This document shows positions 6,654 through 47,348 of a DNA stretch of 47,348 nucleotides, piece by piece. Every line of letters starts with the position of its first letter. Positions within the stretch are counted from its first letter, which is position 1. The notes beneath the pieces are model-generated. The model had not been told where the DNA came from. It saw only the letters and a list, made by a program, of their open reading frames with translations, and searched no databases. Origin of the DNA: a virus; the IMG/VR virus record IMGVR_UViG_3300033141_005645, positions 1 through 47,348 of that record; one strand, 5' to 3'. The position numbers were made by a program, and so were the translations under genes.

Positions 6654-6687
6654 GATGTACCTCATTTCCGGGCGTTCCCGGTTCCCC

Positions 6688-13362: not shown

Positions 13363-13391
13363 TTGTTGTTGGTTGCTGGTTTTTGGCTGTT
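13363..13391. repeat. family B T/G-rich repeat
   Basis: TTGTTGTTGGTTGCTGG followed by TTTTTGGCTGTT fills the gap between the MuF-type gene end and the SD of the next gene. It is the same repeat type as at 6149 and 14391. Confidence 0.6.
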
Positions 13392-14463: not shown

Positions 14464-15827
14464 TCAGATTCCTTCGGCCGGGCCGGCCCGCGCTTTCCGC
14501 CGGGCTGGCCGCCGGGCTGGCCTTCGGAGGGATTGCCCCAGGGCGAACCGCCGCCGTGTGCCGTGGGCGGCGCTTTGTATTCGTCCTCGGGGGATTGCGG
14601 TTCGTTCAGGTGCAGCTCTTCGCGTATCTGCGCGTGAGAAAGCGGATAGCCCATTTGCGCCATCCGGGTGAACACTTCCAGGCGGGTGCGCTGCTCGGCT
14701 GCGGCTTCGGTGCGGATAACGAATTTGGGATACAGGCGTGGCTCGGCGAAGTTCAAGTCGACGAGCCAGGGGATGAGCGTGTTGTTCCAGAGCTCGGATT
14801 CGGCGCGCGCGTCGTCTTCGCGAATATCGCTGCGCACGCGCTGGTGGATGGTGGCGGCACCGTACGACGCCTCCATGGTTTCGGCGGATACGGCCAAGCC
14901 CAGTATCGCTTTGGAGGTCTGGCGGTCGCAGGCTTCGATGAAGGGGCCGTACTCGGCTTTGCCGCTGCGGCGGGCCTCCAGCAGTTCAACGATGAAGTTC
15001 TCGGGAACGGTTAGCCCGGTTTCCTGCTGGATGGAGCGTATGATGTCGTTGATGTCGGCTTTGTCCTTAGCTGAAAGGTTTCCTTTGGGGGTTTTGACGT
15101 AGACCGTCGGGGACGCGAATTTGTCGGCGAAGATGGCCCAGAATTTGAAGCCCTGGCGTTTGAACCACGAGTAGAAGAACGCCATGGCCAGGGCGGGTAT
15201 CCCGTAGGGATTCTCGTAGCGGCGGTAGGGCGAGAACACGAGAAACTTCATGTCGCGAACCGGCTCGCCCTCGCTGTCGGCCTCTGAGCGCAGGATGCGC
15301 AGCTTATTGCCGGTGTCGAACTTGAACTGCCTCAGCGGGCGGTGCAGTAGCCGGCGGGGACGCCAGAACTCCGAAAGGTCCCAGTCAATCTCCATTACCG
15401 CCAGGCCGAAGCCGATGGCGTCGAAGAGGTTGCGCCGGTCGGCATAGAAGCCGCCGTCTCCCGGAATGCGCCAGCCGAAGCGGTTGAACGTGTCGGAAAT
15501 AAAGTTCGCTATCATTTTCGCGCGCACGCTGTCGTCGGCGGGTTCAATCAGCCAGGGGAGGCTTATCAGCCCGGCGGCGCGCACGCGGATGCAGTCGCTC
15601 AAGTGCGGATCGAGCGTCAGCATCTCTTCATAGAGACCCCACGGATAGTCGAATTCGGCGTTCTGCGGCGTCTGCTTGGCTAAGATGATGTCGGGATTTT
15701 CGAGCAGGCCGCCGAAGGTGGTGAGATAGCGCCAGAACTGCCGGTCAACCGGCGTCTGTATTGCGGCAATCAGACGGTCGTCGGCGGTGGTGGGGGTCTC
15801 TTTTTTCGTCTTCTTCTTCGTTGCCAT
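14460..15827 (-). CDS. portal protein, DUF935/Mu gp29-like
   Basis: A 455-residue portal protein forming the DNA entry vertex. Features typical of DUF935 portals include QFWRYLTTFGGLLENPD near 30, the strand-rich centre, and LGLAVSAETMEASYGAATIH near 300, followed by RLEVFTRMAQMGYPLSHAQI. The N-terminus is Lys-rich and the C-terminus is Gly/Pro-rich. The SD GAAGGG is seven bases from the ATG. It lies between the large terminase and MuF gene, the normal packaging order. Confidence 0.93.
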   Translation of the reverse strand: MATKKKTKKETPTTADDRLIAAIQTPVDRQFWRYLTTFGGLLENPDIILAKQTPQNAEFDYPWGLYEEMLTLDPHLSDCIRVRAAGLISLPWLIEPADDSVRAKMIANFISDTFNRFGWRIPGDGGFYADRRNLFDAIGFGLAVMEIDWDLSEFWRPRRLLHRPLRQFKFDTGNKLRILRSEADSEGEPVRDMKFLVFSPYRRYENPYGIPALAMAFFYSWFKRQGFKFWAIFADKFASPTVYVKTPKGNLSAKDKADINDIIRSIQQETGLTVPENFIVELLEARRSGKAEYGPFIEACDRQTSKAILGLAVSAETMEASYGAATIHQRVRSDIREDDARAESELWNNTLIPWLVDLNFAEPRLYPKFVIRTEAAAEQRTRLEVFTRMAQMGYPLSHAQIREELHLNEPQSPEDEYKAPPTAHGGGSPWGNPSEGQPGGQPGGKRGPARPKESE

Positions 15828-15852
15828 AGGTTTTCCCTTCCGTTGGCAGTCA

Positions 15853-15868
15853 CCGCCTGGAAAGGCGG
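15853..15868. repeat. short palindrome between portal and terminase genes
   Basis: CCGCCT-GGAA-AGGCGG forms a 6-bp stem hairpin in the 51-base gap. It is flanked by GTCA and CGCTACC, a common layout of dispersed bacterial palindromes. Confidence 0.6.
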
Positions 15869-15878
15869 CGCTACCCGG

Positions 15879-17165
15879 TTAGAAGCCGGAAGCGGCCTTC
15901 ATGCTCTCGCGGACAACGCCGGTGGTGCGCGCTCCGGTGGGCAAGCCCGCTGAAGCCGCCGCGAAGCGCAAGCCCCAGCAAGCGAGCGCGTCGGCTATCA
16001 CAAAGTCGTCGTGCTGGCCGTGTGGCGCGCCCGCCTTCATCGTGCGGCTCTCGTCGTCCCACCAGACCTCGAAGACCTCGTGCTCCTTTTTCTGCTGCTC
16101 ATCGGGGATGAGGGAGATGGAGCCGTCGCCGACGAACTGCTGGTAGTTGGTGACGAGCTGGGGCTTGGTGATGCGCGTCGTGGTGAAGCGCTCGATGTCC
16201 AGGTTGTGCTGGTCTTCCAGGTCCTGGATAAACGGCTCGCCGGCGTTGTTGGTCTCGATGATGATGCGGCCGGGATATTTGGTCGTGACGTAGAGCACGC
16301 GGTCGCGCTGGGTGCTCAGCCGCCGGTCCTGGAACCGTTCGAAATGCACCTGGGCTTTGCTTTCGGCGTCGAACGTGGAGATCACGGTGAAGTCTTTGGC
16401 GTGCCCGATGTCTACGCCGTGGACATAACGCGCCGCCGGGTCGGGCGGCGTGAGTTTCGAGGTCATTATCTCGGCCCAGCCGGGGATGCCCTCGGTCTCG
16501 CCGCCCACGAAATCGGCCAGAAGCTCCTGCTGCCGCCATTCCCAGGGGACGCTTTCGTCGTTTATTTCGGCCTCGACGTCTTCGGCGGGTAGGTGGGGAT
16601 TGTCGCGCGTGGTGAAATGGAACGTCGTCCAGTGCTTGCGCTCGGGGCTGTCGGCGGCGAGGTGCAGCTCGTAAAACCAGTTCTTGCGGTTGGGCGTGGA
16701 GATGAAAATGGCGAGCGAATAGGGATTGTCCATCAGCGTGGGCTTCAAGGCGCGCAGCCAGGCTTCGGCCTTGCAGCGGGCGGCCTCGTCGACGATTAGC
16801 AAATCGAACTTGCGGCCGATGAGAGAATCTATGTTTTCGGCGGTGAGGAAGTCGATGTGGCTCCCGTTTTTGAAAATGTAGTAGGCGGGCGGGCCGGTGC
16901 GGCTTACGGCCTTGTGGCGGCCGAGGCCCATAGCGTCAACGAAAGCCAGAAACGTGTCGCGGCCTATGCCCGTCGTGGAGTAGTAGGGGCATACCCAGCC
17001 GATGCGCGAATTGGGATGAGTGAGGGCGTACTCGGTGATGTAGCGGGCGCAGAACTCGGTCTTTCCGAAACGCCGCCCGGCGCGCATGTGGATCAGGCGG
17101 TAGGCGCCGGATTTCGCGGCATTATAGACCTGAAGCTGCGCCGGATGGAGCGATAGGTTGATCAT
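15879..17165 (-). CDS. terL: terminase large subunit
   Basis: A 428-residue packaging motor with ATPase and nuclease domains. Walker A GRRFGKT (30-36), Walker B DLLIVDEA (121-128), coupling motif FISTPN (164-169), then the RNase H-like nuclease with D252 in GVDIGHAKD, IIIETNNAGEPF near 301-312, and HDDFVIADALA near 405-415. All motifs look intact. Its ATG overlaps the small terminase stop (TGATG). Two further short terminase-like genes exist at 39940 and 41452, but this is the complete one. Confidence 0.96.
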   Translation of the reverse strand: MINLSLHPAQLQVYNAAKSGAYRLIHMRAGRRFGKTEFCARYITEYALTHPNSRIGWVCPYYSTTGIGRDTFLAFVDAMGLGRHKAVSRTGPPAYYIFKNGSHIDFLTAENIDSLIGRKFDLLIVDEAARCKAEAWLRALKPTLMDNPYSLAIFISTPNRKNWFYELHLAADSPERKHWTTFHFTTRDNPHLPAEDVEAEINDESVPWEWRQQELLADFVGGETEGIPGWAEIMTSKLTPPDPAARYVHGVDIGHAKDFTVISTFDAESKAQVHFERFQDRRLSTQRDRVLYVTTKYPGRIIIETNNAGEPFIQDLEDQHNLDIERFTTTRITKPQLVTNYQQFVGDGSISLIPDEQQKKEHEVFEVWWDDESRTMKAGAPHGQHDDFVIADALACWGLRFAAASAGLPTGARTTGVVRESMKAASGF

Positions 17166-17728
17166 CAGGCTTCGCCGGCGTTGGAAGTAAGGTTGGTCTG
17201 GTCTTTGTGCACCGGCGGGGCGGGGCTGCCGTCGGGTCGCACCGCGCTTCCCGGCGGTTCGACGAGCTCGGGCGGTCCGCCGGAGAATTCGAGCTTGCCC
17301 TGGGCTTCGTGCTCGTCGCGCGCTTTGGCCGCGTCGAGGATTTTTTTCTTGTCGAACGCGATTGCGCCGATGGTGATTATCTGTTTCAGGTCGTTGGCGG
17401 AGAGCTTTCCCAGCCGCTCAGGATCGGTCTTGAGCAGCTCCAGCGCTTCCGCCGTAATCTCCAGCGTTGAGGCGATTATTTCCTTGAGCTTCTCCTCGGC
17501 GCCCAGGTCCAGCATCACTTTGACCGAGCCGACGTAGTCCGGGTGGGCCGAGACCCAGCGGCGCAGCGTGCTCTCGGGCACGTCGATACCGTATTCCGCC
17601 TTCAGCCGCCTGGCCGCCTGGGTGTAGCGGTAAGTGGCGGGATCGGCGGGATCGGGCGCGTCCATCGCCACGAACATCACTGCCCGCTGCACATCTTCAG
17701 GCGAATAATCGTTTCCCGTGCGCGTCAT
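17165..17728 (-). CDS. terS: terminase small subunit
   Basis: A 187-residue protein with an N-terminal helix-turn-helix (TQAARRLKAEYGIDVPESTL) followed by long helices and a proline-rich, acidic tail. This is the layout of small terminases that recognise the packaging site. It is directly upstream of and coupled to terL. The 17729-18074 region just upstream holds nested inverted repeats that are a natural candidate for its binding site. Confidence 0.85.
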   Translation of the reverse strand: MTRTGNDYSPEDVQRAVMFVAMDAPDPADPATYRYTQAARRLKAEYGIDVPESTLRRWVSAHPDYVGSVKVMLDLGAEEKLKEIIASTLEITAEALELLKTDPERLGKLSANDLKQIITIGAIAFDKKKILDAAKARDEHEAQGKLEFSGGPPELVEPPGSAVRPDGSPAPPVHKDQTNLTSNAGEA

Positions 17729-17736
17729 GCCCTCTC

Positions 17737-17838
17737 ATAAGTAGGTGCAGTTTGCGCGTAGCAGCCGACTGAAACCGACAGAAACCGACATTTTTGTCGG
17801 GTTCTGTCGGTATATTCCCCCAAAGTGCAGCTACTTAT
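17737..17838. promoter_or_regulatory. nested inverted repeats: candidate operator or packaging site
   Basis: Outer perfect arms ATAAGTAG (17737-17744) and CTACTTAT (17831-17838) enclose CCGACTGAAA, then CCGACAGAAACCGACA, TTTT, TGTCGGGTTCTGTCGG. The inner 16-base arms (17775-17790, 17795-17810) match at 15 positions. CCGAC units recur every 10 bases. TATATT follows at 17811 and could be a -10 box for rightward late transcription. Position between terS and the head operon fits a cos/pac site or an operator. Confidence 0.75.
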
Positions 17839-17987
17839 AGAGTGCGAGGTTGCATTCACAATTCGCTAACTAGCTGCCCGGCCAGTGTTGCGCGCCGAGA
17901 AAGGCGCACTGTCAGAATCTCGCCATCTAAACGGGCTTCAGGACAGTATCAGCGGCCCGCCGGGCAGCCTTTTTCCTTTGTCAATAC

Positions 17988-18051
17988 GCCGCCCGGCCCC
18001 CCGTTCGCGCGCAAACGCGCGAGCTTCTCTAACGAGACCAAGCCGGGCGGC
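17988..18051 (+). promoter_or_regulatory. leader hairpin before head operon
   Basis: Perfect arms GCCGCCCGGC (17988-17997) and GCCGGGCGGC (18042-18051) enclose a smaller CGCGCG/CGCGCG hairpin. CAGCCTTTTTC follows; the same CAGCCTTTTTC also occurs at 17965. The SD GGGAGG is 14 bases after the stem. It may be an attenuator or a translation control structure. The rest of 17839-17987 shows nothing coding. Confidence 0.5.
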
Positions 18052-18074
18052 TCAGCCTTTTTCGGGAGGTCTAT

Positions 18075-19490
18075 ATGCCTGAAGTCGTGAAGTGGGAGCC
18101 GGGAAAAGCGGTACGCGCCGGAAGCTGGGACGCGGCGGCGGCGCGGGAGAAGCTGAAAACAGCCGCGACGCGCGAAGACGGGACGGTGGACTATGCCCGG
18201 TACCGCCGGGGCTTTGGCTTGGTTGACGGGGATCCCGAGAGTGAGGGCAGCTACAAGTTCCCGCACCACTCAATCGACGAGAAGGGGAATCTCACGACCG
18301 TCCGCGAGGGGCTCAGCGCGGCGATGGGAAGGCTCGGCGAAGTGCCAGCCAGCGTGCGGCGGCGGGTCTATAACCATTTGCGCGAGCACTACAAGCAATT
18401 CGACGAGAAGCCGCCGGAATACGCGTTCGAGCGATTGCGCGGAGTGCCGATCATGCGGCCGGGCGAATGGAACGGCACGCCGGTTTACGAAGACGACCTG
18501 CAGCGCCTCTCCGATAACTACGACCCGCTGATTCAGCAGGCGCCGGTGTCCATCGGGCATGAGGGATTTTTCAGCGACTCCCACGGCGGCAAGGACGCGG
18601 AGGGCTGGATCGAGAGCCTTTCGATGAAGGACGGCGTGATGGTGGCGGACATCGCCGACGTGCCGAAAGAGACGGCGGAGAGAGTGAAGGAGGGCAAGCT
18701 CAAGTACCGCTCGATAGAGGTCTATCCGCCAGCGCGAACTTCCAAAGGCTGGGAGGAAGTCGCTGGGCTGGCGCTGGTGAACCAGCCGGCGGTGACGGGC
18801 TTGGGCGAGAACGCCGATTTTCTACAAGCTAGTAGTTTTGCGGGGCGGGACACGGTCCGCATGACGTATCAATATGAGGAGGGAACGAAATCAATGACCG
18901 TGAAAGAGAAAATCGTAGAGGCATTCAACACGGTCGCCCGGCACATGAAGCTGGGCCGAGTATCCGTTGAAGATGCCTTGCCGCCGGAGGACCCTCCGGG
19001 TGATCCACCGGCGGACAACTTCAGCCGCGAGAAAGCTGCGGAGTTTGACCGTCTCCAGAAGGAGAACGAGGAGTTCAAGCGGCGCGAGGCCGAGCGGCTG
19101 GAAGCGGACTGTGCGCAGTGGGCGAGGGAGGCTGCCGAGAAGCTCAAAAACGACAAGCACATCTCCCCGGCCGTCGCGGAAGCGGGGCTGGAGGACGTGC
19201 TGTTTGCGCTGAAGGCGAACGGCGCGAAGACCACGTTTAGCCGGGCGGGCAAGAGCGAGGAGCTTGAGCTCGCCGAAGCCGTGGTCGCGTGCTTTGCCGC
19301 GAATTCGAAGCCGCCGCCGGGAGGCACGGATGCCGCCGGCGTGGAGGGCGGGAAGCCTCACGACGATGCGGGCCGGGCGAAAGCCTTCGACAAGGCGCTC
19401 GCGGAATTCAAAAAGATGAACGGTCGCCCGCCGACGGCTGCGGAGATTGTGGAGCTGGTCGGCTCGGCGACCGGAGGGGGTGAAAAGTGA
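18075..19490 (+). CDS. Mu gpI-like prohead protease with C-terminal scaffold
   Basis: A 471-residue protein. Residues 15-115 carry a domain often fused to phage capsid proteases (VDYARYRRGF, YKFPHHSI). Residues 120-260 resemble the Mu gpI protease: SIGHEGFF, AEGWIESL, LKYRSIEVYP, GLALVNQPAVTGLGE. Residues 274-471 are charged and helical (FDRLQKENEEFKRREAERL), typical of scaffold. SD GGGAGG is six bases before the ATG. It is the first gene of the rightward late operon. Cleavage at the junction, or an internal start, would release scaffold. Confidence 0.88.
   Translation: MPEVVKWEPGKAVRAGSWDAAAAREKLKTAATREDGTVDYARYRRGFGLVDGDPESEGSYKFPHHSIDEKGNLTTVREGLSAAMGRLGEVPASVRRRVYNHLREHYKQFDEKPPEYAFERLRGVPIMRPGEWNGTPVYEDDLQRLSDNYDPLIQQAPVSIGHEGFFSDSHGGKDAEGWIESLSMKDGVMVADIADVPKETAERVKEGKLKYRSIEVYPPARTSKGWEEVAGLALVNQPAVTGLGENADFLQASSFAGRDTVRMTYQYEEGTKSMTVKEKIVEAFNTVARHMKLGRVSVEDALPPEDPPGDPPADNFSREKAAEFDRLQKENEEFKRREAERLEADCAQWAREAAEKLKNDKHISPAVAEAGLEDVLFALKANGAKTTFSRAGKSEELELAEAVVACFAANSKPPPGGTDAAGVEGGKPHDDAGRAKAFDKALAEFKKMNGRPPTAAEIVELVGSATGGGEK
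18894..19490 (+). CDS. nested scaffold protein (internal in-frame start)
   Basis: An in-frame ATG at codon 274 (MTVKEKIVEAF) is preceded by GAGGAGGG with nine bases spacing, a stronger SD than most genes here. The product would be 198 residues of scaffold only. Mu and lambda make their scaffold the same way from a nested start in the protease gene, so this is likely real, but the start is predicted only. Confidence 0.65.
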   Translation: MTVKEKIVEAFNTVARHMKLGRVSVEDALPPEDPPGDPPADNFSREKAAEFDRLQKENEEFKRREAERLEADCAQWAREAAEKLKNDKHISPAVAEAGLEDVLFALKANGAKTTFSRAGKSEELELAEAVVACFAANSKPPPGGTDAAGVEGGKPHDDAGRAKAFDKALAEFKKMNGRPPTAAEIVELVGSATGGGEK

Positions 19491-20164
19491 GCCTTTCGAT
19501 GCACACAACTTCGGCGCTGGCTGCGGTCAAGATTGAGCGTGGCCGCGCCGTTATTTTCGACGGCAATGGCAAGTTCGCCTATCCGACCCAGGACGGGGAC
19601 GCCGTTGCTGGCATTGTGACCGGAGAGATCGCGTCGGGTGAAGTCGGAGACGCCTACATTCTGGGCGAGGCCCCGAACGCGATGGTCGGCGAAGCGGTTG
19701 CTATCGGCGACCTGCTGCGTGCGGTCAAGACGACCGGCAAGCTGGAAGTGGCCGCCGCTTCGGTGCTGATGGACAGCGACAACGCCAAGTCCGACATCAC
19801 GTTTACGGTAACGCACAAGTACCAGGGCGCGCAGGGCGACCACATCACCGTTACGTTCACCGACGCCGGCGCCGGTAAGGCGCTCGCTATCACGGTTTCG
19901 GGTTTTGACATCGATGTCCAGTTGCAGACTGGCGGCGGCGGCGCGATCGAGTCAACAGCCGCCGAAATCGTGGCGGCAATTGCGGCGGACGCCGATGCGG
20001 CCGACCTTGTGGTCGGGGTACCGGACGACGACGGTAGCGGCGTGGTCAAGGCCATCGCCAAGAGCTACCTCACCGGCGGCATCGGGGCCTTCGCCCGGGC
20101 GATGGAAGTGGCTACGGCGGACGGCGACTATGTGAATATCGACATCTTCGGAGGTGGAGCATAA
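19487..20164 (+). CDS. capsid decoration protein with inserted structural module
   Basis: A 225-residue protein with a GTG start overlapping the protease stop. Residues 1-85 (GDAVAGIVTGEIASGEVGDA) and the end (ARAMEVATADGDYVNIDIF) match DUF2190-like head decoration proteins. Between them, about residues 95-200 (FTVTHKYQGAQGDHITVTF onward, ending YLTGG) is a separate beta-rich module seen in other phage structural proteins. The module splits the decoration domain. It should coat the capsid. Confidence 0.72.
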   Translation: MSLSMHTTSALAAVKIERGRAVIFDGNGKFAYPTQDGDAVAGIVTGEIASGEVGDAYILGEAPNAMVGEAVAIGDLLRAVKTTGKLEVAAASVLMDSDNAKSDITFTVTHKYQGAQGDHITVTFTDAGAGKALAITVSGFDIDVQLQTGGGGAIESTAAEIVAAIAADADAADLVVGVPDDDGSGVVKAIAKSYLTGGIGAFARAMEVATADGDYVNIDIFGGGA

Positions 20165-21168
20165 TGCCAGCTGGAGTACACGGAACAGTTCAAGTCGACC
20201 GGCTGCTCACGACCCTGTCTGTGAGCCTGGCCGACGATTCGAAGAATTTCATCGGGCCACTGGTTGCGCCGACGGTGCTGATGGACAACCCCGGGGGGCC
20301 TTACCCGTTTTTCGGCCGCGAGGAGTTCAAGCTGGGAGCGGACGACGACTACGTGGCCGATCGCGGAGAGGCGAAGACCTACGAGCCGTCGATGAGCACC
20401 GACACCTACACGACCAAGGGGCACGCGGAGAAGGTTATCCTCACCGTTGCCGAGCAACGGCGGGCGCAGAAGCCGTTTGAAGTGCTTATCACTCCGCGCC
20501 TGGCGGAAGTGGTGCGGCGGCAGAAGCGGCGCCATGAAATCAAAGTGGCGACTCTGCTGCAGACGGCGGGGAACTATCACGCCAACAACCAGATCGACAT
20601 CGACGCACTGGCGAACCGGCGCTGGGACGAGACCGCGGCGACGCCGCTGGTGGACATCGAGACGGCGATAGCGCAAATCGAGCTCTCCATCGGGGAGCCG
20701 CCGACGCACATGATTATGCCCCGGCTGGTTTACAACGCCTTCCGCAACGTTGCGGCGGTGCGGGCGGCCATCAAGGGCGACAAAGGCGGCGCCATCGACA
20801 AGCCGGCCATCGCCGATTACTTCGGGCTGAAGGCCGTGCTGGTGGGCGGCGGCGCGGTTGACAGCGCCAAGAAAGGCCAGGCGGCGGTGCGCGGCCGCAT
20901 CTGGAACGGCAAGCACTGCATGTTGATCTATGTTACGGAGTCGCCGGGCCGAAAGGTGGCGACTACGGCGTACACGTTCGTGTGGAACGCTATCGAAGGA
21001 GCGCAGGACGGACGGGTTGTTACCCGCTGGTTCGAGCCGAACCTCGGCCCGCTGGGCGCGGATGTCGCGCGGGTGGCGAATTACCACGACGTGAAGGCCG
21101 TCGGCGTTGACGCGCCGGCTACGGGCAAGATCATCAGCGGCTATCACATCGGGAAGGTCATCGGCTAG
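20164..21168 (+). CDS. major capsid protein
   Basis: A 334-residue protein in the expected slot after protease/scaffold and decoration genes. The N-terminus (VDRLLTTLSVSLADDSKNFI) and the central and C-terminal parts (PPTHMIMPRLVYNAFRNV, WNAIEGAQDGRVVTRWFEP) resemble HK97-fold capsid proteins of the Mu-type group. Start ATG overlaps the previous stop (ATAATG). It forms the icosahedral shell. Family placement is by overall pattern, not by a signature residue. Confidence 0.85.
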   Translation: MPAGVHGTVQVDRLLTTLSVSLADDSKNFIGPLVAPTVLMDNPGGPYPFFGREEFKLGADDDYVADRGEAKTYEPSMSTDTYTTKGHAEKVILTVAEQRRAQKPFEVLITPRLAEVVRRQKRRHEIKVATLLQTAGNYHANNQIDIDALANRRWDETAATPLVDIETAIAQIELSIGEPPTHMIMPRLVYNAFRNVAAVRAAIKGDKGGAIDKPAIADYFGLKAVLVGGGAVDSAKKGQAAVRGRIWNGKHCMLIYVTESPGRKVATTAYTFVWNAIEGAQDGRVVTRWFEPNLGPLGADVARVANYHDVKAVGVDAPATGKIISGYHIGKVIG

Positions 21169-34627: not shown

Positions 34628-34692
34628 GCCCCGCCGCCGCTCCATCCTCCGAAGCAGAGCTTCTGCGGAGGACGGGTAAAGCTATGGCGGGC
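34628..34692. repeat. family A hairpin, long form
   Basis: GCCCCGCCGCCGCTCCATCC, then TCCGAAGCAGAGCTTCTGC and GGAGGACGGGTAAAGC, ending TATGGCGGGC. The inner hairpin replaces the loop of the short form. It ends 14 bases before the next ATG; the following GGGAGG serves as SD. Confidence 0.92.
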
Positions 34693-34706
34693 AAAAGGGA
34701 GGATAC

Positions 34707-35012
34707 ATGGAAATCATTATGCAGGCAGTGTTGTTGAAGCCCCTGCTGGTCGCCGGACTGGTGCTGGGGCTTATCGTGCGAACTCTCGGCCCCTGGCTGC
34801 TGAAGGGCGCGGCTCGCGGACCGTTCAAGCCGAAGTATCACTGGAACTGGGTGATAGCGGCTGCCGTCGGCTTCGTGCCGACGGTCTTGCTGCTGTCCTC
34901 GACGGGGAACGTCTGGGGCGACCTCGTTTACGGCGCGGCAGTCGCGTTCGGGATGCAGGCGGCGGTTCGAGAGTTCATCACGAAATTGTTGGAAAAACCC
35001 GCCGCCGCATAA
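34707..35012 (+). CDS. holin-like membrane protein
   Basis: A 101-residue protein with about three membrane helices (LLVAGLVLGLIVRTLG, WVIAAAVGFVPTVLLL, LVYGAAVAFGMQAAV). SD GGGAGG precedes the ATG. Its position next to the XhlA-like and endolysin-like genes supports a holin. The last residues KPAAA are encoded by the start of the next family A repeat, so its C-terminus was reshaped by the insertion. Confidence 0.75.
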   Translation: MEIIMQAVLLKPLLVAGLVLGLIVRTLGPWLLKGAARGPFKPKYHWNWVIAAAVGFVPTVLLLSSTGNVWGDLVYGAAVAFGMQAAVREFITKLLEKPAAA

Positions 35013-35024
35013 AGCTATGGCGGG
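34998..35024. repeat. family A hairpin, short form
   Basis: CCCGCCGCCGCATAAAGC then TATGGCGGG. It overlaps the end of the holin-like gene and ends 17 bases before the next TTG start, whose SD (AAAGGAGG) follows the repeat. Confidence 0.9.
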
Positions 35025-37934: not shown

Positions 37935-38292
37935 TGCCATGCTCCTGGTCGTAGCGCCGCGCGTCCTCTCTTTCCCGCTCTTCGGCTTCGCGGTTACGGC
38001 GTTCTATCCGCTTCTCGATCTGCTCAATGCGGTATTCCGTTGCTTTCTCAGATTGCGTCATAGGCCTGTCGGTTGGTGTACTGTCACCTAGATAGTCGCA
38101 TATTGTAAAAAGGAAAATGATGATGAGTATGGCGAGTACTACATACCAGCCGATGATGGGCTTTTCGGGCTTGTCAGAGGCTTCCATGCGAGCGCGGGCA
38201 TCGGCAATCAATTCGTCGCTTATACCGCTTTTCTTCATATGAGAGAGTATGGATTCCTCATGGGAATTCAATTGTCTTTTCTCCGTCATCAT
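37927..38292 (-). CDS. small single-pass membrane protein in lysogeny block
   Basis: A 121-residue protein with a membrane helix (IIGWYVVLAILIIIFLFTIC) near residues 46-65 and a highly charged coiled-coil tail (RIEQIEKRIERRNREAEERE). Its ATG overlaps the repressor stop (ATGA). The codon and base content is AT-richer than neighbours. Position between repressor and integrase suggests expression in the prophage, perhaps for superinfection exclusion; that is inference. Confidence 0.7.
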   Translation of the reverse strand: MMTEKRQLNSHEESILSHMKKSGISDELIADARARMEASDKPEKPIIGWYVVLAILIIIFLFTICDYLGDSTPTDRPMTQSEKATEYRIEQIEKRIERRNREAEEREREDARRYDQEHGND

Positions 38293-39062
38293 TCCATCCT
38301 TCTGAACGTCCTGACGCTGCCGACGACCGTTCCGAGTACCGCTCCGGGCGGGTCTTCGCCGTCGCGTATCACGAGCGGGCGGAAGCCCAAGTTCTGGCTT
38401 CCCGCCGGTGTCAGTGTAACTCCTTCGGCACCGGGCCAGTACCGGGCGACGTAGCTGTTTTTGGTATCAAAGGGCCGGAAGTAGACCCAACTGCCGCCCG
38501 CCGGGCTCGTTCGCGGCGAAACCGCGATAAGCTCGCTATCGTGAAAGTCGGGGGCAAGATGGTCTCCAGACACGAGCACGCCGAATATCTGGGCATCGTA
38601 GGTCAGCCAGGATGCCGGGATTTCCGCCCTCTGGATTTCATCGAGACCGGACAGCATCTCAAAGTCGTAGCCGTCTTCGAAGTCGGGCAGGACGGGCTGC
38701 GTTCGCCGGGGCATATCGATTATTCGCGGCACCAGCGCGAGGGAACCATGCGTCGGGGCGGTCATTATCCCGAATTCGACGCGCTGCTCTAGCCGTCGCA
38801 GCTTTTTCCCGAGTTCATCTACCGCTTCTCTGGACGCGGGTTCGCTCGTAACCCACAAGGAATCGGCATCGACGCCGAGCGCTTCGGCAATGCGGGCGGC
38901 GATGCGCGGCGGAGGATTTGAACGCCCCGTCGTGTACTGGGCAAGCCTTTCGCGGGAAACAGTATCGTCCGGCGTGCTGATTTCTTCGGCGAACTGGGTG
39001 CGGGTTTTGCCTGTACGGCCAAGCTCGCTCACTACAAGCAGGTAGTTGAATCTCCGTTTCAC
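38289..39062 (-). CDS. CI-like repressor with degenerate S24 domain
   Basis: About 257 residues from GTG 39062. An upstream in-frame TTG at 39068 lies before the expected transcription start. Residues 5-70 form a helix-turn-helix (TRTQFAEEISTPDD, ERLAQYTTGRSNPPPR). The C-terminal half matches the LexA/CI S24 fold (FGVLVSGDHLAPDFHDSELI, then SYVARYWPG), but the catalytic Ser is His (GDHL in place of GDSM) and the Lys position is Ala. It likely dimerises but cannot self-cleave. It should repress the early promoter at 39137. Confidence 0.86.
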   Translation of the reverse strand: MKRRFNYLLVVSELGRTGKTRTQFAEEISTPDDTVSRERLAQYTTGRSNPPPRIAARIAEALGVDADSLWVTSEPASREAVDELGKKLRRLEQRVEFGIMTAPTHGSLALVPRIIDMPRRTQPVLPDFEDGYDFEMLSGLDEIQRAEIPASWLTYDAQIFGVLVSGDHLAPDFHDSELIAVSPRTSPAGGSWVYFRPFDTKNSYVARYWPGAEGVTLTPAGSQNLGFRPLVIRDGEDPPGAVLGTVVGSVRTFRRME

Positions 39063-39070
39063 TGGCAATA

Positions 39071-39136: not shown

Positions 39137-39165
39137 TTGACAAGGCTAACAGCAGTCGTTATAAT
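39137..39165 (+). promoter_or_regulatory. strong early promoter
   Basis: TTGACA (39137-39142), 17-base spacer, TATAAT (39160-39165): a perfect sigma70-type promoter. Transcription should begin near 39172, five bases before the Cro-like GTG, so this mRNA is nearly leaderless as well. It drives the early operon that continues across the contig ends. Confidence 0.9.
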
Positions 39166-39176
39166 ATTCTCTAACG

Positions 39177-39422
39177 GTGGAAGCGTCTGATATTACATTG
39201 AACGAAAATCCGCTGCGGAAGCGGCGGGAGGACCTCGGCCTTACTAGGGCTCAGCTCGTGAGACGCCTGGCCAGGGAGGGCGTTGAAGTCTCTGCGCAAG
39301 CTATCTACCACTGGGAAACGTACGCGGCGAAAGTTCCCGGCGACAAGCTGCCAGCGATCGAGCGCGCCCTGGAGCTTCCCGAAGGCACGCTCTACCACAA
39401 AATCTACGTAAAGGCTCACTGA
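39177..39422 (+). CDS. Cro-like helix-turn-helix repressor
   Basis: An 81-residue XRE-family protein with GTG start. The HTH is LRKRREDLGLTRAQLVRRLA then VSAQAIYHWET, recognition helix near 38-48. It is the first gene of the early operon and diverges from the CI-like gene, the standard immunity-switch layout. No SD, consistent with a near-leaderless transcript. Confidence 0.88.
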   Translation: MEASDITLNENPLRKRREDLGLTRAQLVRRLAREGVEVSAQAIYHWETYAAKVPGDKLPAIERALELPEGTLYHKIYVKAH

Positions 39423-39423
39423 A

Positions 39424-39717
39424 ATGGGGAACACCAGAACTCAGATGCTTGGAAGGATGACTGCTGAAGAAATCGCTGACGCACTCACCGCGTCGGGCTT
39501 CGGTGTTTACGAGGGCGTGGAGGGCGAGATGTGCATTCTTACAGTCGACTCCGCGACATTGCCATTTTCGTTCACGCTGAAGATGCCAGTCACGTACAGG
39601 ACTGAGGTTTACCGCCTGGGCTTGAGGGCTGTAAGGGAGATATGCGTCGTGGCGATTGACGCTCACAAGCCCAAGCAGCCGGGCACGCACGCTGCGGAGG
39701 GCGCTGGTGGCGGTTAG
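39424..39717 (+). CDS. small early protein, unknown
   Basis: A 97-residue protein starting one base after the Cro-like stop. It has mixed helices and strands (MTAEEIADALTASGFGVYEG, FSFTLKMPVTYRTEVYRLG) and a Gly/Ala tail. Its C-terminus overlaps the next gene. No known motif. Confidence 0.6.
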   Translation: MGNTRTQMLGRMTAEEIADALTASGFGVYEGVEGEMCILTVDSATLPFSFTLKMPVTYRTEVYRLGLRAVREICVVAIDAHKPKQPGTHAAEGAGGG

Positions 39718-39940
39718 CGAGCGCGTAATCTACGGCGACGACGAGAACGCCCGGAAAGGCTTCCAGGATTTCATTCTCCGGGCAGCGGGCAAAATGCTCA
39801 ACGACCGCCAAGCCGATGCCGATGCCGACAGCGAAACGATAAGCGAATTGCAGCCGGTGAGCTTCGAGAGGGTGGTTCGGCAGGCTCCCTTCGGTCTGAG
39901 CACTCAGGGTCGAAGACACCACGGGGAGGACGGCGAGTAG
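39707..39940 (+). CDS. small early protein, unknown
   Basis: A 77-residue protein from GTG 39707 with GGAGG six bases upstream; the longer frame starting at 39656 lacks an SD. VAVSERVIYGDDENARKGFQ begins a helical region, then an acidic stretch DADADSE. It is followed without gap by the terminase-like gene. Function unknown. Confidence 0.6.
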   Translation: MAVSERVIYGDDENARKGFQDFILRAAGKMLNDRQADADADSETISELQPVSFERVVRQAPFGLSTQGRRHHGEDGE

Positions 39941-40566
39941 TGGAAAGGGCGCTGCAACAGGCTGTGGCAAATGAGCGCAGCAAAAGCGGAATCCTGAGCG
40001 TCTACGAGCAGGAGCGCGCGGAGTTTTTTGGCGAGATCAACTACTACCCGAACGAATGCCAGGAGCTAATTCACCGCACGGTTGATGAACACAGAAGGAT
40101 TTACGTCGAGGCACCGCGCCGGAGCGGGCTGACTGTCGGACTGGTATTCGAAGCGCTCTGGCAGGCGCAGCGCGAAGCCGCCCAGGTCGTGCTCGTCGCG
40201 CCCAATTTCATCGTGCAGATGATTCACCGCCGGATGCTGCTCGAACTCGTCAACGAACGCGACCGGCTCTACTCCGAATTCCTGTCCTACAACCGCCACG
40301 AGGAAATACGTTTTACCGGCGGGCGCGCGATTATCTCAGTGACCGTGAGCACAATCAAGGGCTTGCTCGGACGGCCGCTTACGGCGGTGCTTTACGACGA
40401 CGCCGAGCGGGGCAACGCCTGGCCGTGGACGGAACTGGAAAAGATACTCGCCAAAAACGACGGCTGCGCAATCGCAGCCTCACAAGCGCGCGGCGTGCCG
40501 GTATGGCTGCGCGATTGGATTGAAAGCGCGCATCCTCACGAAATCATCTATCCGGGGGAACGATGA
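39940..40566 (+). CDS. short terminase-like ATPase with degenerate Walker A
   Basis: A 208-residue protein resembling the ATPase domain of large terminases: an N-terminal adenine-motif-like region (YYPNECQELIHRTVDEHR), a Walker A place EAPRRSGLTVG where Lys is Leu, strand VVLVAPNFIVQM, then LTAVLYDDAERG as Walker B and a coupling-like CAIAASQ. There is no nuclease domain. Loss of the Lys should stop normal ATP hydrolysis. It overlaps the transglycosylase gene. Role unknown; it might compete with or regulate packaging. Confidence 0.65.
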   Translation: MERALQQAVANERSKSGILSVYEQERAEFFGEINYYPNECQELIHRTVDEHRRIYVEAPRRSGLTVGLVFEALWQAQREAAQVVLVAPNFIVQMIHRRMLLELVNERDRLYSEFLSYNRHEEIRFTGGRAIISVTVSTIKGLLGRPLTAVLYDDAERGNAWPWTELEKILAKNDGCAIAASQARGVPVWLRDWIESAHPHEIIYPGER

Positions 40567-41435
40567 TGGACGAGACGAACGGTCAAACTAGCTACCCTTC
40601 CTCCTGGAATAAGCGGGGGGCGGCCGCAACTCCGCCTCCCGCCCTCCAGGGGGCTGCCCGCGAGGGCCGCAATCCGCGGACGGGGCAAGAGCTCTCGGAA
40701 CACGGCGCGGTCGCAAACGCGCTCAGGACGCTCAGGCGGCGCGCGGTGCGCCAGCGGCTGGTGGACATCGCGCTGGTCGCGTTTTTGCTGCTGCTGGGCT
40801 TCCTGGCGGGCTTTACATTGAAATCCTGCGTGCAGACAGCAGCCCCCTTCGCCATAGTAGCGTGGGCTACGGAGGCTGAACACGCTAGGGATTTTCTCAT
40901 TGGCACTCCGGTGGCATCGCAGTGCACGCCGGAGAACTCTCCAACAGCTGAGGAGTGGTGCGCGGGCATCATCGAGCGCTACGGCAAGGATCGCGGGAAG
41001 GAACACTCACGCGAAACCGCCCGCGCGGTCGTGGCTTGCGCGCCGCTCCTTGGCGACTATCTTGACTATCGCAAGGCGGTGTGCCTGCTGATGGCGTGCG
41101 TGTGGCAGGAGAGCACGTTTGACCCGCTGGCCTATGGGACATCGCGCGATAGCGGGCTGATGCAGCTCGTACCGAAGTGGCACGCCTGGCGGTTCGGCGG
41201 CGGCGACTGGCGCGACCCGATGGTGAATGTGCGCGCCGGAGCGGGGCTGCTGGCGGAGAAATTGACCGAATCGCGCGGGGACGTGTGGCTCGCGGTTAGC
41301 CGCTACAACGCGGGGCCTGGGTGCAATTACGTCAACGCGCACGCGCGCAAAGTGCGGGCGTACTTCAACAAGCTGCTCAAACTCTGGGACGACGCCGGGG
41401 TATCCCAGGACGAGCAATATATGGACCGGCTGTAG
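40563..41435 (+). CDS. membrane-anchored lytic transglycosylase
   Basis: A 290-residue protein with a membrane helix near 66-86 (VDIALVAFLLLLGFLAGF) and a C-terminal SLT domain: catalytic E183 in WQES, GLMQLVP at 198-204 and SRYNAG near 250. Such enzymes cut peptidoglycan glycan strands. The linker includes FAIVAWATEAE, encoded by DNA much like part of the tail-tube gene. It is in the early rather than the late operon, which is unusual for a lysis enzyme. Confidence 0.9.
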   Translation: MMDETNGQTSYPSSWNKRGAAATPPPALQGAAREGRNPRTGQELSEHGAVANALRTLRRRAVRQRLVDIALVAFLLLLGFLAGFTLKSCVQTAAPFAIVAWATEAEHARDFLIGTPVASQCTPENSPTAEEWCAGIIERYGKDRGKEHSRETARAVVACAPLLGDYLDYRKAVCLLMACVWQESTFDPLAYGTSRDSGLMQLVPKWHAWRFGGGDWRDPMVNVRAGAGLLAEKLTESRGDVWLAVSRYNAGPGCNYVNAHARKVRAYFNKLLKLWDDAGVSQDEQYMDRL

Positions 41436-41451
41436 CCGGAAGGAGAAACGC

Positions 41452-42123
41452 ATGGAAGAAACTAAGAAGATTACGCGGACTGATTTTTTCAAGGCGATAG
41501 GCTACGCGCCGCACGAAGGCCAGCAGGCCGTTCACGAAAGCGATGCGCGCTACCGGATCGTGACGTGCGGCCGGCGGGGGGGCAAGTCTAAGATGCTGGC
41601 CGCGGAAGCGGCTTTATTTTTAGTGGCCGGTGGGCGCGTACTGATCGTATCCGCTTATAAAACGATACTGGAAAGGCTGAAGCTGCGAATAGTCGAGTGC
41701 CTTGACGAGGCTAGGTCGCTGATCGGGAACACGGCTAATCTGAGATACCTGGTAGAGCGCGGCGCTGCGCTTGACACGGGCTTCCCTGATACCAGCCTAA
41801 GCGGCAGCAAGGGCTATGACCTGGTCGTGTCGAAGGAGCTCTGGCGGATTTCGGCCAATCCCGTAGGCGTGATTATCGCTCTGCTCACCGAGCGCGAGGG
41901 CTGCTGGCTCGAAGCGGGCACGCCGCCAATCAATCCGCCTGCGTGGTATCGACGGATAATCGCTAAGGCTGACGCTTCGGAGAAGAAATGGGCGAGGTTC
42001 GCCTGGGCTTCAAAAGCAAACCCTTCATTGCCAGACGATTTCATGGAGGAGATGGCCGTAGCGCTGGAGCCTGAAGTCGCTAAGGCTGAGCTTAGCGGCG
42101 AGATAGTGACAACCGACGTCTGA
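41452..42123 (+). CDS. short terminase-like ATPase with altered Walker B
   Basis: A 223-residue protein that begins with a terminase-type adenine motif (FFKAIGYAPHEGQQAVHES) and an intact Walker A CGRRGGKSK near 39-47, then VLIVSAYK. The expected Walker B place reads YDLVVSKELW, with DE replaced by KE. There is no nuclease domain. SD AAGGAG precedes the ATG. It flanks the transglycosylase with the other defective terminase-like gene; the lesions are complementary. Confidence 0.72.
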   Translation: MEETKKITRTDFFKAIGYAPHEGQQAVHESDARYRIVTCGRRGGKSKMLAAEAALFLVAGGRVLIVSAYKTILERLKLRIVECLDEARSLIGNTANLRYLVERGAALDTGFPDTSLSGSKGYDLVVSKELWRISANPVGVIIALLTEREGCWLEAGTPPINPPAWYRRIIAKADASEKKWARFAWASKANPSLPDDFMEEMAVALEPEVAKAELSGEIVTTDV

Positions 42124-42165: not shown

Positions 42166-42229
42166 GCCCTCCGTCGCTCCATCCTCCGAAGCAGGGCATC
42201 TGCGGAGGACGGGTGAAGCTATGGAGGGC
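42166..42229. repeat. family A hairpin, long form
   Basis: GCCCTCCGTCGCTCCATCC, then TCCGAAGCAGGGCATCTGC and GGAGGACGGGTGAAGC, ending TATGGAGGGC. The stem is CCCTCC/GGAGGG here. It ends 12 bases before the ATG at 42241 and GAGGGCAGGGGG supplies the SD. The bases 42124-42165 before it resemble family C and contain no gene. Confidence 0.92.
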
Positions 42230-42240
42230 AGGGGGCTGTA

Positions 42241-42696
42241 ATGCGTGAGTTCAAAGACTGGTACGTCTGGCTGACATCCCATCCGAAGGCGGGCAAGTGG
42301 CTGCTGGGGCATTTCACTCAGAACTTCGTGGCCTGTGACATCGGGGTCGTTGATGCCAAGCTGAAGGTTTTCACGCTGCCGCTGAATAAGCTGCCCTACA
42401 ACGCGGAAAGCGCGGCGGCCTGGATCAAGAAGAAGCTCACGCGCGAGAAGTGCGAGCGGGTGCTTGTTGATCTGGGATATACGCTGGTGGACACGGTATC
42501 TGCGGAAGTCTGCCAACTAAGAATAGAACCGCCGCCTTTGGATAAGCAATGGATGGCAGTTTACGACGGCGAGTCGCGCTGGGAAGTGGCGGTTCAGTGG
42601 GCGCTGGAAAAGTGGGAGAAGGCCCCTCCGTCGCATAAAGCTATGGAGGGCAGCCCTCCGTCGCGTGACGCTATGGAGGGCAAGGAGGGCAAGTGA
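42241..42696 (+). CDS. hypothetical protein with repeat-derived C-terminus
   Basis: A 151-residue protein starting MREFKDWYVWLTSHPKAGKW. The core has alpha/beta pattern (LLGHFTQNFVACDIGVVDAK) without recognised motifs. The last 25 residues (APPSHKAMEG, SPPSRDAMEG, KEGK) are translated from two tandem family A hairpins. This tail was probably acquired when the repeats entered the gene end. Confidence 0.72.
   Translation: MREFKDWYVWLTSHPKAGKWLLGHFTQNFVACDIGVVDAKLKVFTLPLNKLPYNAESAAAWIKKKLTREKCERVLVDLGYTLVDTVSAEVCQLRIEPPPLDKQWMAVYDGESRWEVAVQWALEKWEKAPPSHKAMEGSPPSRDAMEGKEGK
42622..42681. repeat. two family A hairpins at a gene end
   Basis: Copies 42622-42651 (GCCCCTCCGTCGC, ATAAAGC, TATGGAGGGC) and 42653-42681 (GCCCTCCGTCGC, GTGACGC, TATGGAGGGC) differ only in the loop and first arm. 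The second ends 12 bases before the GTG at 42693; AAGGAGGG follows as SD. Confidence 0.93.
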
Positions 42697-43505
42697 GCAG
42701 GTATCCGGGCCTAAACGCTACCGACATCGAATACGTGGACTTTTCGCTCAATATCTACGTCGGCTGCCGGTGCGGCTGCCGGGACTTCGACGGGCGGCTT
42801 TACTGCTACGCGCGCCAGATCGTCGAGGAAAGCCCCTGGCGCGAGCGCCATCACTGGCCGAAGAAGTTCACCGACGTGTCGTGCTATCCAGAGCGCCTGC
42901 AGACGCTGCTGAAACTCGCGGGCTACAAGCGGCGCGACGGGCGGCGGGCGCGGATATTTTTATCCGATATGTGCGATATGTTCGCGCCCTGGACGCCGCA
43001 GTATCCGGTCAGTGTGCGCGACGTGATGCGCGCCATCCGCCAGGTGCCGCAGCACGACTTTTTGCTGCTCACGAAGTCCTACGAGCGGCTGGCGCACGTT
43101 GAGAGCACCTGCGGGGGCTTCCCCGAAAACGCGTGGGTCGGCGTCACCATCGATCGTGCGAGCGTGTGCCGGCCGGCGCTGCGCGCGCTGTCCGAAATAC
43201 GCGCGGCGGTGAAGTGGGTATCGTTCGAGCCGCTGTTGGGCGATGCGCTTGGGGGCGACCCGCTTAGCGGCGTTGACTGGGCGGTTGTCGGCGCGCTTAC
43301 CGGCCCGCACGGGTATTTGCCGGAAGCCGAGTGGCGGGGAAATATCCTGCGCAGTGCGGACGCTGCGGGCATCCGCGTTTTCGAAAAAGATAATTTGAAG
43401 CTGAAAGCTCCCCGCCGGGAGTTTCCCGCCGTCGCTCCATCCTCCGAAGCAGGGCATCTGCGGAGGACGGGTGAAGCTATGGCGGGCAAGCCCGCTGGTG
43501 CATGA
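42693..43505 (+). CDS. DUF5131 (phage Gp37/Gp68-like) radical-SAM-type protein
   Basis: A 270-residue protein with the DUF5131 pattern: IYVGCRCGC and LYCYAR (C25, C27, C29, C38) near the start, then IFLSDMCDMFAPW, FLLLTKSYERL, WVGVTI, and KWVSFEPLLG. The Cys cluster suits an iron-sulphur cluster of a radical-SAM-like enzyme. Phages and prophages often carry it; its reaction is not known. The last 25 residues (VAPSSEAGHLRRTGEAMAGK) come from a family A hairpin. GTGA overlap with the previous gene. Confidence 0.85.
   Translation: MSRYPGLNATDIEYVDFSLNIYVGCRCGCRDFDGRLYCYARQIVEESPWRERHHWPKKFTDVSCYPERLQTLLKLAGYKRRDGRRARIFLSDMCDMFAPWTPQYPVSVRDVMRAIRQVPQHDFLLLTKSYERLAHVESTCGGFPENAWVGVTIDRASVCRPALRALSEIRAAVKWVSFEPLLGDALGGDPLSGVDWAVVGALTGPHGYLPEAEWRGNILRSADAAGIRVFEKDNLKLKAPRREFPAVAPSSEAGHLRRTGEAMAGKPAGA
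43425..43487. repeat. family A hairpin, long form, within DUF5131 gene end
   Basis: CCCGCCGTCGCTCCATCC, TCCGAAGCAGGGCATCTGC, GGAGGACGGGTGAAGC, TATGGCGGGC. It lies inside the last codons of the gene and ends 28 bases before the next ATG. Confidence 0.92.
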
Positions 43506-45747: not shown

Positions 45748-45977
45748 AAGCTACGGTTATGCGACGGATCGAGAAGCGGCTGCAGGGCATCGAAACGCAG
45801 CTTGAGTGCATCGCGGGTCTGATGGAGATGAAACCGCATAAATGCCTGAAGTGCAACGGAACGGGCGTTGAGACGTACCGAGATATAGGAGGCCCGCACG
45901 AAAGATATTGCTCCGCGTGCGGCGGTGCCGGGAAAATCTGGCGGAAGCCTGAGACAGACGAAGGGGGCGGGGAGTGA
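45744..45977 (+). CDS. small protein with DnaJ-type zinc finger
   Basis: A 77-residue protein from GTG 45744 (GTGA overlap, SD GGAGGGGG). A short coiled coil (MRRIEKRLQGIETQLECI) precedes CLKCNGTG and CSACGGAG, again DnaJ-type CxxCxGxG repeats. It is similar in layout to the gene at 44708 and may be a shortened relative. Confidence 0.7.
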   Translation: MKATVMRRIEKRLQGIETQLECIAGLMEMKPHKCLKCNGTGVETYRDIGGPHERYCSACGGAGKIWRKPETDEGGGE

Positions 45978-46441
45978 GGGGGTTCTTCGCCGTCGGTGTC
46001 TGGGAGCCGAAGTTCGGCGCGAACATGGGGACGCTCGTGCGCTCGGCGTACGCGTTCGGCGCGGCTTACGTTTTCACTGTGGGAAAGCGCTACCGGCACC
46101 ATCCGGCGGACACGGGCAAGGCCACAAAGCACATGCCGCTGTTTCACTACGCGGGTTTGGGCGAACTGCTGCTCGATTTGCCGGACGGCGCGCAGCTCGT
46201 GGGCGTGGAGCGCGACCCTGAAGCCTGGCCGCTGCCCGCCTTCACGCATCCGGAGCGGGCGGTCTACCTGCTGGGCGGCGAGGATCGGACGCTGCCGCGC
46301 GACTTCCTGTTCGAGAGCTGCCAGGAGATGGTGAGCATCGATACCCGGCAGTGCCTGAATCTGGCTACCGCCGGGTCGATTGTGATGTACGACCGATGGC
46401 TGAAGCGCACGCTTGTGCGCAAAGGAGACGGACGTGATTAG
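45974..46441 (+). CDS. SpoU/TrmL-type RNA 2'-O-methyltransferase
   Basis: A 155-residue SPOUT-fold protein. Motif 1 is NMGTLVRSAYAFGA (17-30), motif 2 LLGGEDRTLP (99-108), motif 3 CLNLATAGSIVMYDR (127-141). Its length fits the short TrmL group that methylates the tRNA wobble ribose. It should form a knotted dimer that binds AdoMet. A phage copy could adjust host tRNA during infection. The GTG start overlaps the previous stop. Confidence 0.85.
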   Translation: MRGFFAVGVWEPKFGANMGTLVRSAYAFGAAYVFTVGKRYRHHPADTGKATKHMPLFHYAGLGELLLDLPDGAQLVGVERDPEAWPLPAFTHPERAVYLLGGEDRTLPRDFLFESCQEMVSIDTRQCLNLATAGSIVMYDRWLKRTLVRKGDGRD

Positions 46442-46949
46442 CATACTCATCACGATAGCTGCGATCCTGGGGATATTTTCTATCTGGGCGGGCAGGTGCT
46501 GGTACGACTGGCGGGCAGCGGCTAAGGACGCCGACCGGAAGGCTGAAGGGCTGGAGAGCCAGCTTATGGGCAAGCAAGGCGAGCTTCGGACCGCGAACGG
46601 CGTAAAAGAGCGTCAGCGCAAGGAGTTGGGCGAACTCAAGGAAAACGTGACGCTCCAGGAGAGGGAGCGGACGCGGCTGGCTTACTACCTGCAAATTCAG
46701 CACCTGGGCGACTACCCGTACACGTGCGAGAAGCACGGTCACATAATGCTGCTGCCGCTGCTGATGCCCGACGGGACGGTGAAGTGGGTATGCCCGATGG
46801 ACCGCTGCGGGTACGTCAAGTCCTACGATCCGGTGACGCGCGGGCATAAAGCTACGCGGCCGGCGGGCTACGACAGACGGCGCTTCGAAGCGCTGCGGAA
46901 GCTGGGCCCGCCGTCGCACAAAGCTATGGCGGGCAAGGGGGAGAAATAA
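46434..46949 (+). CDS. membrane-anchored coiled-coil protein with zinc ribbon and repeat tail
   Basis: About 171 residues from GTG 46434 (SD AAAGGAGA). One N-terminal membrane helix (VISILITIAAILGIFSIWAG), a coiled coil (AEGLESQLMGKQGELRTANG), then CEKHGH and CPMDRCGYV, a probable zinc site. The tail PPSHKAMAGKGEK is translated from a family A hairpin. The next ATG overlaps the TAA. Function unknown. Confidence 0.72.
   Translation: MISILITIAAILGIFSIWAGRCWYDWRAAAKDADRKAEGLESQLMGKQGELRTANGVKERQRKELGELKENVTLQERERTRLAYYLQIQHLGDYPYTCEKHGHIMLLPLLMPDGTVKWVCPMDRCGYVKSYDPVTRGHKATRPAGYDRRRFEALRKLGPPSHKAMAGKGEK
46906..46934. repeat. family A hairpin, short form
   Basis: GCCCGCCGTCGCACAAAGC then TATGGCGGGC. 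It lies in the last codons of one gene and ends 14 bases before the ATG at 46949, followed by AAGGGGGAG. Confidence 0.92.
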
Positions 46950-47320
46950 TGTTGGCGTATGAACGAAGTGGAACGTGTGACGGCTGCGGCTGCGCGCTTC
47001 AGGGCGGCGACACGGTGTATTGCCGTGCGTGTCTGGATGGCTACCTGAAGGACGAGACAGAGAAGCCGCAGGAGGCGGCGGCTCGTAATCATTACCAGTT
47101 CGCCTGCCAGACTGGCGATATGGGGCAGGGCGGCTTTCATCCGCTCACGTGCGCCGGTGGCGGTGGAGAACACAGCGGAGTCTGTCTTGTGTTCGTGGAT
47201 GGGCGCTGGCGCTGTCCGGTTCAGGGCTGCCAGCACACGCAAGAACCGTTCGAGCCGTGGGAAGCTGCGCGGCGAAGATATGAAGCCCGCGAGGGCAAAG
47301 GAGACGGCGATGGCAAGTGA
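46949..47320 (+). CDS. Cys-rich zinc-ribbon protein
   Basis: A 123-residue protein with CDGCGC and CRAC near the start and further Cys later (CAGGGG, CPVQGC). It would bind one or two zinc ions. Pattern is like small early zinc-binding proteins of large phages. It overlaps the next gene (starting at 47310, complete at 76-324), so the operon runs unbroken across the contig ends. Confidence 0.75.
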   Translation: MLAYERSGTCDGCGCALQGGDTVYCRACLDGYLKDETEKPQEAAARNHYQFACQTGDMGQGGFHPLTCAGGGGEHSGVCLVFVDGRWRCPVQGCQHTQEPFEPWEAARRRYEAREGKGDGDGK

Positions 47321-47348
47321 TATGAAGCTAATCACGGTTGACGAAATC
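47235..47348. repeat. 114-bp terminal direct repeat (right copy)
   Basis: Identical to bases 1-114; see the left copy. It shows the early operon is continuous through the circle junction. Confidence 0.95.
47310..47348 (+). CDS. 5' end of the small gene complete at 76-324 (partial)
   Basis: The first 13 codons (MASDMKLITVDEI) of the gene that continues at the left end. Same SD AAAGGAG. Partial only because the window ends. Confidence 0.85.
   Translation, partial: MASDMKLITVDEI

Follow-up and report, generated by a model that had tools for sequence, protein, structure and literature searches.

TerL ATPase-domain homologues without a nuclease flank a transglycosylase gene in the predicted early operon of a temperate phage

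The gene for the large terminase subunit (TerL), a phage hallmark, is commonly regarded as present in one copy, expressed late, and devoted to packaging alone. In the TerL proteins of phages P74-26 and T4, it is established that the Walker A and Walker B elements of an ATP pocket come from the same subunit. Several systems are known to act on phage assembly and packaging or to sense their components: Tab acts on tail assembly (PMC10884400), PICIs redirect the packaging of their helper (PMC6739421), and Avs1-3 immunity targets the large terminase subunit (PMC12724215, PMC12931631).

Here, we analyzed the whole of the viral record IMGVR_UViG_3300033141_005645, a stretch of 47,348 nucleotides referred to below as the window. 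Besides a complete TerL with ATPase and nuclease domains, it encodes two short TerL-like proteins, ORF A and ORF B (A and B below), on either side of a lytic transglycosylase (SLT) gene (Table 1). Positions 1-114 and 47235-47348 form an exact 114-nt direct repeat at the two ends, and this repeat makes it very probable that the sequence represents an entire phage genome of about 47.2 kb, which would be circular or terminally redundant. The phage is temperate and has not been seen before; its gene content includes a serine integrase, CI- and Cro-like regulators, a DnaB-like helicase, and a set of head and tail genes. The head module (13390-21168) is arranged in two divergent blocks, TerS-TerL-portal-minor head on the minus strand and protease-MCP on the plus strand, and its layout is similar to that of the Mu-like Pseudomonas phage Bise, which has a related MCP.

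Table 1. Features of the A-SLT-B region and of the terminase genes in the window
Feature	Coordinates	Strand	Basis or remark
Complete TerL, ATPase and nuclease	15879..17165	-	phrog_2, 1.9e-39; full-length profile match
Putative TerS	17165..17728	-	Position only, adjoins TerL; without family match
CI-like repressor, divergent	38289..39068	-	HTH_3, 1.5e-6; phrog_4 repressor, 2.9e-11
Sigma-70 promoter, perfect TTGACA-17-TATAAT (12/12)	39137..39165	+	Upstream of cro
Cro-like HTH protein, operon gene 1	39177..39422	+	HTH_31, 4.4e-5
Small ORF	39424..39717	+	In operon; without family match
Small ORF, start codon at 39707 inferred	39707..39940	+	Stop overlaps GTG of A (TAGTG)
ORF A, 208 aa, TerL ATPase-domain paralogue, no lid or nuclease	39940..40566	+	TerL profiles
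Lytic transglycosylase SLT, 290 aa	40563..41435	+	PF01464, 9.5e-16
ORF B, 223 aa, TerL ATPase-domain paralogue, no nuclease	41452..42123	+	TerL profiles
Hairpin repeat element, 64 nt	42167..42230	+	Between B and next gene; 3 copies in window

ATPase domains of ORF A and ORF B

A full-length-TerL profile run against all ORFs of the window matched only TerL itself, B (4.4e-19), and A (1.4e-10), and the PHROG family of TerL, phrog_2, also recovered both proteins (B, 1.8e-7; A, 1.8e-4). An external TerL profile, built without proteins of the window, scored 64 bits for B and 34 bits for A, compared to a best score of 3.3 bits among 1,500 shuffled sequences, ruling out a chance resemblance or membership in another P-loop family. 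A preliminary description of this region had proposed two partial TerL-like ATPases in addition to the complete TerL at 15879; their coordinates and motifs are confirmed, and the profile scores firmly identify A and B as homologues of the N-terminal ASCE ATPase domain of TerL.

The similarity ends with the ATPase domain. B stops after the lid and A before it, neither has the C-terminal RNase H-like nuclease domain, and the window contains no nuclease remnant, as the TerL profile matches only TerL, B, and A. We rejected the possibility that B and the next ORF (42241-42696) represent a split TerL, as the latter has no nuclease match, and an assembly fragment or a broken TerL is unlikely with a complete contig, judged by its 114-nt end repeat, and an intact TerL elsewhere. 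Both ORFs lie outside the packaging block with TerS and the portal gene, at a distance of >22 kb, and the complete TerL fills its place in that block. Because they have neither the nuclease nor this genomic context, A and B are classified here by their sequences as TerL-ATPase homologues, yet not as terminase large subunits.

The catalytic residues of A and B were compared with those of 13 external TerLs, in which the Walker A Lys and the catalytic Glu are invariant (13/13) and the Walker B Asp occurs in 11 of 13. A reads APRRSGLT at Walker A, with Gly replaced by Pro and Lys by Leu (L64), and VLYDDAER at Walker B, with D153 kept and the catalytic Glu replaced by Asp (D154); in motif III, TP has become QA, the lid is absent, and the other conserved sites are retained. 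The absent Walker A Lys and the DD pair had been recorded before, but the lesions at the Walker A Gly, the catalytic Glu, motif III, and the lid go beyond that list. A is very probably a pseudo-ATPase, unable to hydrolyze ATP. B keeps the Q motif, Walker A (CGRRGGKS, with K45), the catalytic Glu (E129), T157-P158 of motif III, and Glu 213 of the lid, and only the Asp of its Walker B (VVSKELWR) is altered, to K128 (DE to KE). The intact GRRGGKS and the KE pair were thus described correctly, yet KE retains the catalytic Glu, and B is almost intact. TerLs do not all have Asp in the DE pair: the full-length proteins of phages Patience and Triscuit have Ala at this position (VIMAEA and VLLAEA), so the change at Walker B does not by itself prove B dead. 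B probably still binds ATP. The suggestion that complementary defects allow A and B to form one composite ATPase is not supported in that form: A has lesions at four catalytic sites and no lid, B is near-intact, and the two cannot simply mend one site, because Walker A and Walker B of a pocket come from one subunit.

The AlphaFold model of A has a mean pLDDT of 71, and its first structure match is the P74-26 TerL ATPase (1.3e-8); the models of A and B were built from an alignment of A, B, and TerL, meaning that this match is not fully independent. The model of B, from the same alignment, is poor (pLDDT 55), and its structure matches add little. Neither A nor B has a convincing transmembrane (TM) segment, and neither belongs to a PADLOC defense family. 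Among the three window proteins, A and B are each other's best phmmer match (2.4e-7), and the phylogenetic tree neither shows nor rejects a sister relation (AU p 0.40). Terminal branches measure 4.6 for A, 3.4 for B, and 1.7 for TerL, so A and B have evolved faster than TerL, which fits a lost motor constraint. They may have originated by duplication of each other, by duplication of the resident TerL, or by separate acquisition.

Operon context and distribution of the cassette

The window has one perfect sigma-70 promoter, and none occurs in 100 shuffles. It lies between CI and Cro and is oriented toward the cassette, ahead of cro-A-SLT-B. This strong promoter next to CI/Cro supports the early operon named in the preliminary description, and the placement of A-SLT-B in it is well supported as a prediction from sequence. 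If the genome ends join, the early operon continues into DnaB at 326. A, SLT, and B follow each other in tandem with intact frames, Shine-Dalgarno sequences, and tight spacing: the GTG start of A shares bases with the stop before it (TAGTG), the SLT start does so with the stop of A (ATGATG), and B has a good ribosome-binding site (GGAAGGAGAAACGCATG). Codon scores of A (0.27) and SLT are like those of core genes, and the score of B is low (0.075); the annotated frame is the best of six for each of the three. The low score of B would also fit recent acquisition or decay.

The SLT protein is predicted to have an N-terminal cytoplasmic tail, one TM helix (residues 66-84), and a periplasmic SLT domain, with the motifs ES (containing the catalytic Glu), GLMQ, and YNAG at 182, 197, and 248. 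A membrane-anchored transglycosylase between A and B, as originally noted, is therefore present. Its match in PADLOC is marginal only. SLT is tied to A and B only by gene order and may be a mere neighbor.

The hairpin repeat downstream of B folds at -40.9 kcal/mol (z, -3.65). Hairpin repeats occur at 14055-14112, 34630-34693, 34998-35024, 42167-42230, 42624-42681, 43425-43488, and 46907-46934, in the forms CCCTCCGTCGC..GCTATGGAGGGC and in a 64-nt version. Several Patescibacteria and one Verrucomicrobia MAG contain exact matches, each in a single contig, and IMG/VR contains none. The hairpins look like host-type repeats picked up by the phage and could indicate its host. Other genes of the phage include a DUF5131 protein (42693-43505, 1e-32), which also matches the radical-SAM mobile pair protein A model at 3.3e-21, under the cut-off of that model, and the PADLOC candidates PDC-M41B and PDC-M30B; a SpoU-type RNA methyltransferase in the early operon (45974-46441; PF00588, 6.4e-16); and an SNF2 helicase (5082-6665) resembling the helicase part of the defense proteins ZorD and DpdE.

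Searches of IMG/VR, of GTDB contigs, and of 50,697 phage and 72,556 plasmid records detected no relative of the A-SLT-B cassette; the contig searches used short exact peptides, which mostly catch close relatives, and an absence in them is weak evidence. IMG/VR contigs were queried with B, A, TerL, MCP, the A/B alignment, the hairpin repeat, SLT, and DUF5131. Two IMG/VR loci matched SLT, and neither contains a TerL-like ORF. In 387 Verrucomicrobiota and Patescibacteria genomes, no ATPase-only TerL was recognized: most matches lie in frames of TerL length or longer, and the few shorter frames (253 to 364 aa) may be partial matches or cuts at contig ends. A full TerL query hit 1,303 places in 1,302 phage records, indicating that, at the sensitivity of this query, records rarely have more than one TerL-like place. 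Five partly related phages have at most one TerL ORF each by profile, RDJL Phi 1 being covered over 50 of its 62.7 kb. No account of early or duplicated paralogues of the TerL ATPase was found in the open-access literature, a scope that leaves most subscription papers outside. The data searched thus contain a single example of the cassette, too few to judge conservation or purifying selection.

Possible roles of ORF A and ORF B

What could two nuclease-free ATPase domains of a packaging motor do in an early operon? Genes that sit next to cro and are expressed early commonly code for proteins of host takeover or anti-defense. We favor, with a probability of roughly 0.35, the reading that A and B are truncated and repurposed TerL ATPase domains that act as early dominant-negative or decoy binding partners and not as packaging motors. 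The homology, truncation, residue losses, early placement, and promoter can be read from the sequence, and from them we infer the partners and function. A and B would have been cut off before the nuclease domain and then repurposed, and the CI/Cro-controlled promoter would drive them early, ahead of the late TerL. By keeping the ATPase surface of TerL, they could bind TerL-type subunits or TerL-binding factors and serve as dominant-negative or decoy partners, with A as a pseudo-ATPase scaffold and B probably retaining ATP binding. The outcome might be that the phage's own terminase is restrained until the late phase, that the terminase of a coinfecting phage is poisoned, or that a host sensor of terminase is occupied. 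The near-intact site of B suggests that it may still be an enzyme and not a passive binder. CI is expected to shut the operon off in a lysogen, so a role in lytic growth is more likely than a constitutive shield of the lysogen against other phages. It is doubtful that the two TerL-derived domains, one a pseudo-ATPase and the other near-intact, constitute a dedicated early device, whether a heteromeric ATPase or a terminase mimic that disarms rival terminases or the sensors of terminase, with SLT as a possible link to the cell wall.

The long branches, the catalytic losses, the weak codon score of B, and the failure to find relatives would all suit decaying, functionless relics of TerL genes left by earlier recombination. 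However, phages tend to shed idle DNA, both reading frames are open throughout and preceded by ribosome-binding sites, with tightly spaced starts and stops, A scores like core genes in codon usage, and B keeps nearly every catalytic residue, so we consider relics unlikely. Another possibility is that B, binding or hydrolyzing ATP, and A, as an inactive structural subunit, build a heteromeric ATPase ring that, together with the membrane-anchored SLT, serves at the envelope as an early machine for DNA translocation or entry. The adjacent and codirectional genes, the mutual best scores of A and B among the window proteins (phmmer, 2.4e-7), the asymmetry of an active and an inactive member, and the catalytic motifs of an SLT with a membrane anchor point in this direction. 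Such a ring is nevertheless distinctly unlikely, since A lacks the lid, no TM segment is convincing in either protein, and their sisterhood is neither shown nor rejected (AU p 0.40). Interference with rival packaging and DNA entry, both named in the preliminary description, gain no support from the sequence and are not contradicted by it.

A and B might also be anti-defense decoys that occupy terminase-sensing STAND proteins of the Avs1-3 type without activating them, before the real TerL appears. The recognition of the large terminase by Avs1-3 (PMC12724215, PMC12931631), the early position of the two genes, and the match of the A model to the terminase in the Avs3 complex 8DGC (2.6e-5, one of many TerL matches) are consistent with it, but a fragment of terminase could set the sensor off instead, and we give this version only a slim chance. 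Equally slim is the chance that B functions as an accessory ATPase, perhaps in replication or the processing of DNA, with A functionally unrelated: B keeps every motif except the Walker B Asp, a site where the TerLs of Patience and Triscuit have Ala, and its operon leads to DnaB, but it has no nuclease or recognizable DNA-binding domain, and a Lys at the metal-binding site is likely harmful.

If A and B are indeed repurposed TerL domains that act as early binding partners, a packaging motor would be reusable for early control of the host or of rivals. TerL mimics would be directly testable candidates for anti-immunity proteins, since bacteria sense TerL through Avs1-3, and viral counts and trees based on TerL would call for caution.

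Comparison with described systems

The closest structural relative is the TerL ATPase of Thermus phages P74-26 and P23-45 (PDB 4ZNI-4ZNL and 7KS4), whose ASCE fold is common to A and B. Among PDB entries, B matches the P74-26 TerL ATPase crystal sequence best (3e-7), the model of A likewise has the P74-26 domain as its top hit, and the N-terminal FF..xGYxPHxxQ..IH segment is shared between these TerLs and A/B. In contrast, P74-26 TerL has 485 aa, a nuclease, and full motifs, whereas A and B have 208 and 223 aa, no nuclease, and altered motifs. B is 30 to 34% identical over about 200 aa to TerLs of Verrucomicrobiota, but those compared are single-gene proteins of 417 to 521 aa, and no ATPase-only form was seen among them. 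The TerLs of Mycobacterium phage Patience and Microbacterium phage Triscuit are homologous to B and have AE at Walker B; they differ from it in being full-length and in lying within packaging or structural blocks near portal genes.

Other likenesses concern a possible role. Tab (PMC10884400) and the packaging redirection by PICIs (PMC6739421) are examples of interference encoded by prophages or satellites and act on the assembly or packaging of another phage, an analogy of role only; their proteins, unlike A and B, are not TerL homologues. Avs1-3 sensors bind the large terminase, so a TerL mimic could engage them; by this analogy, A and B would be mimics of the ligand and not members of the Avs family.
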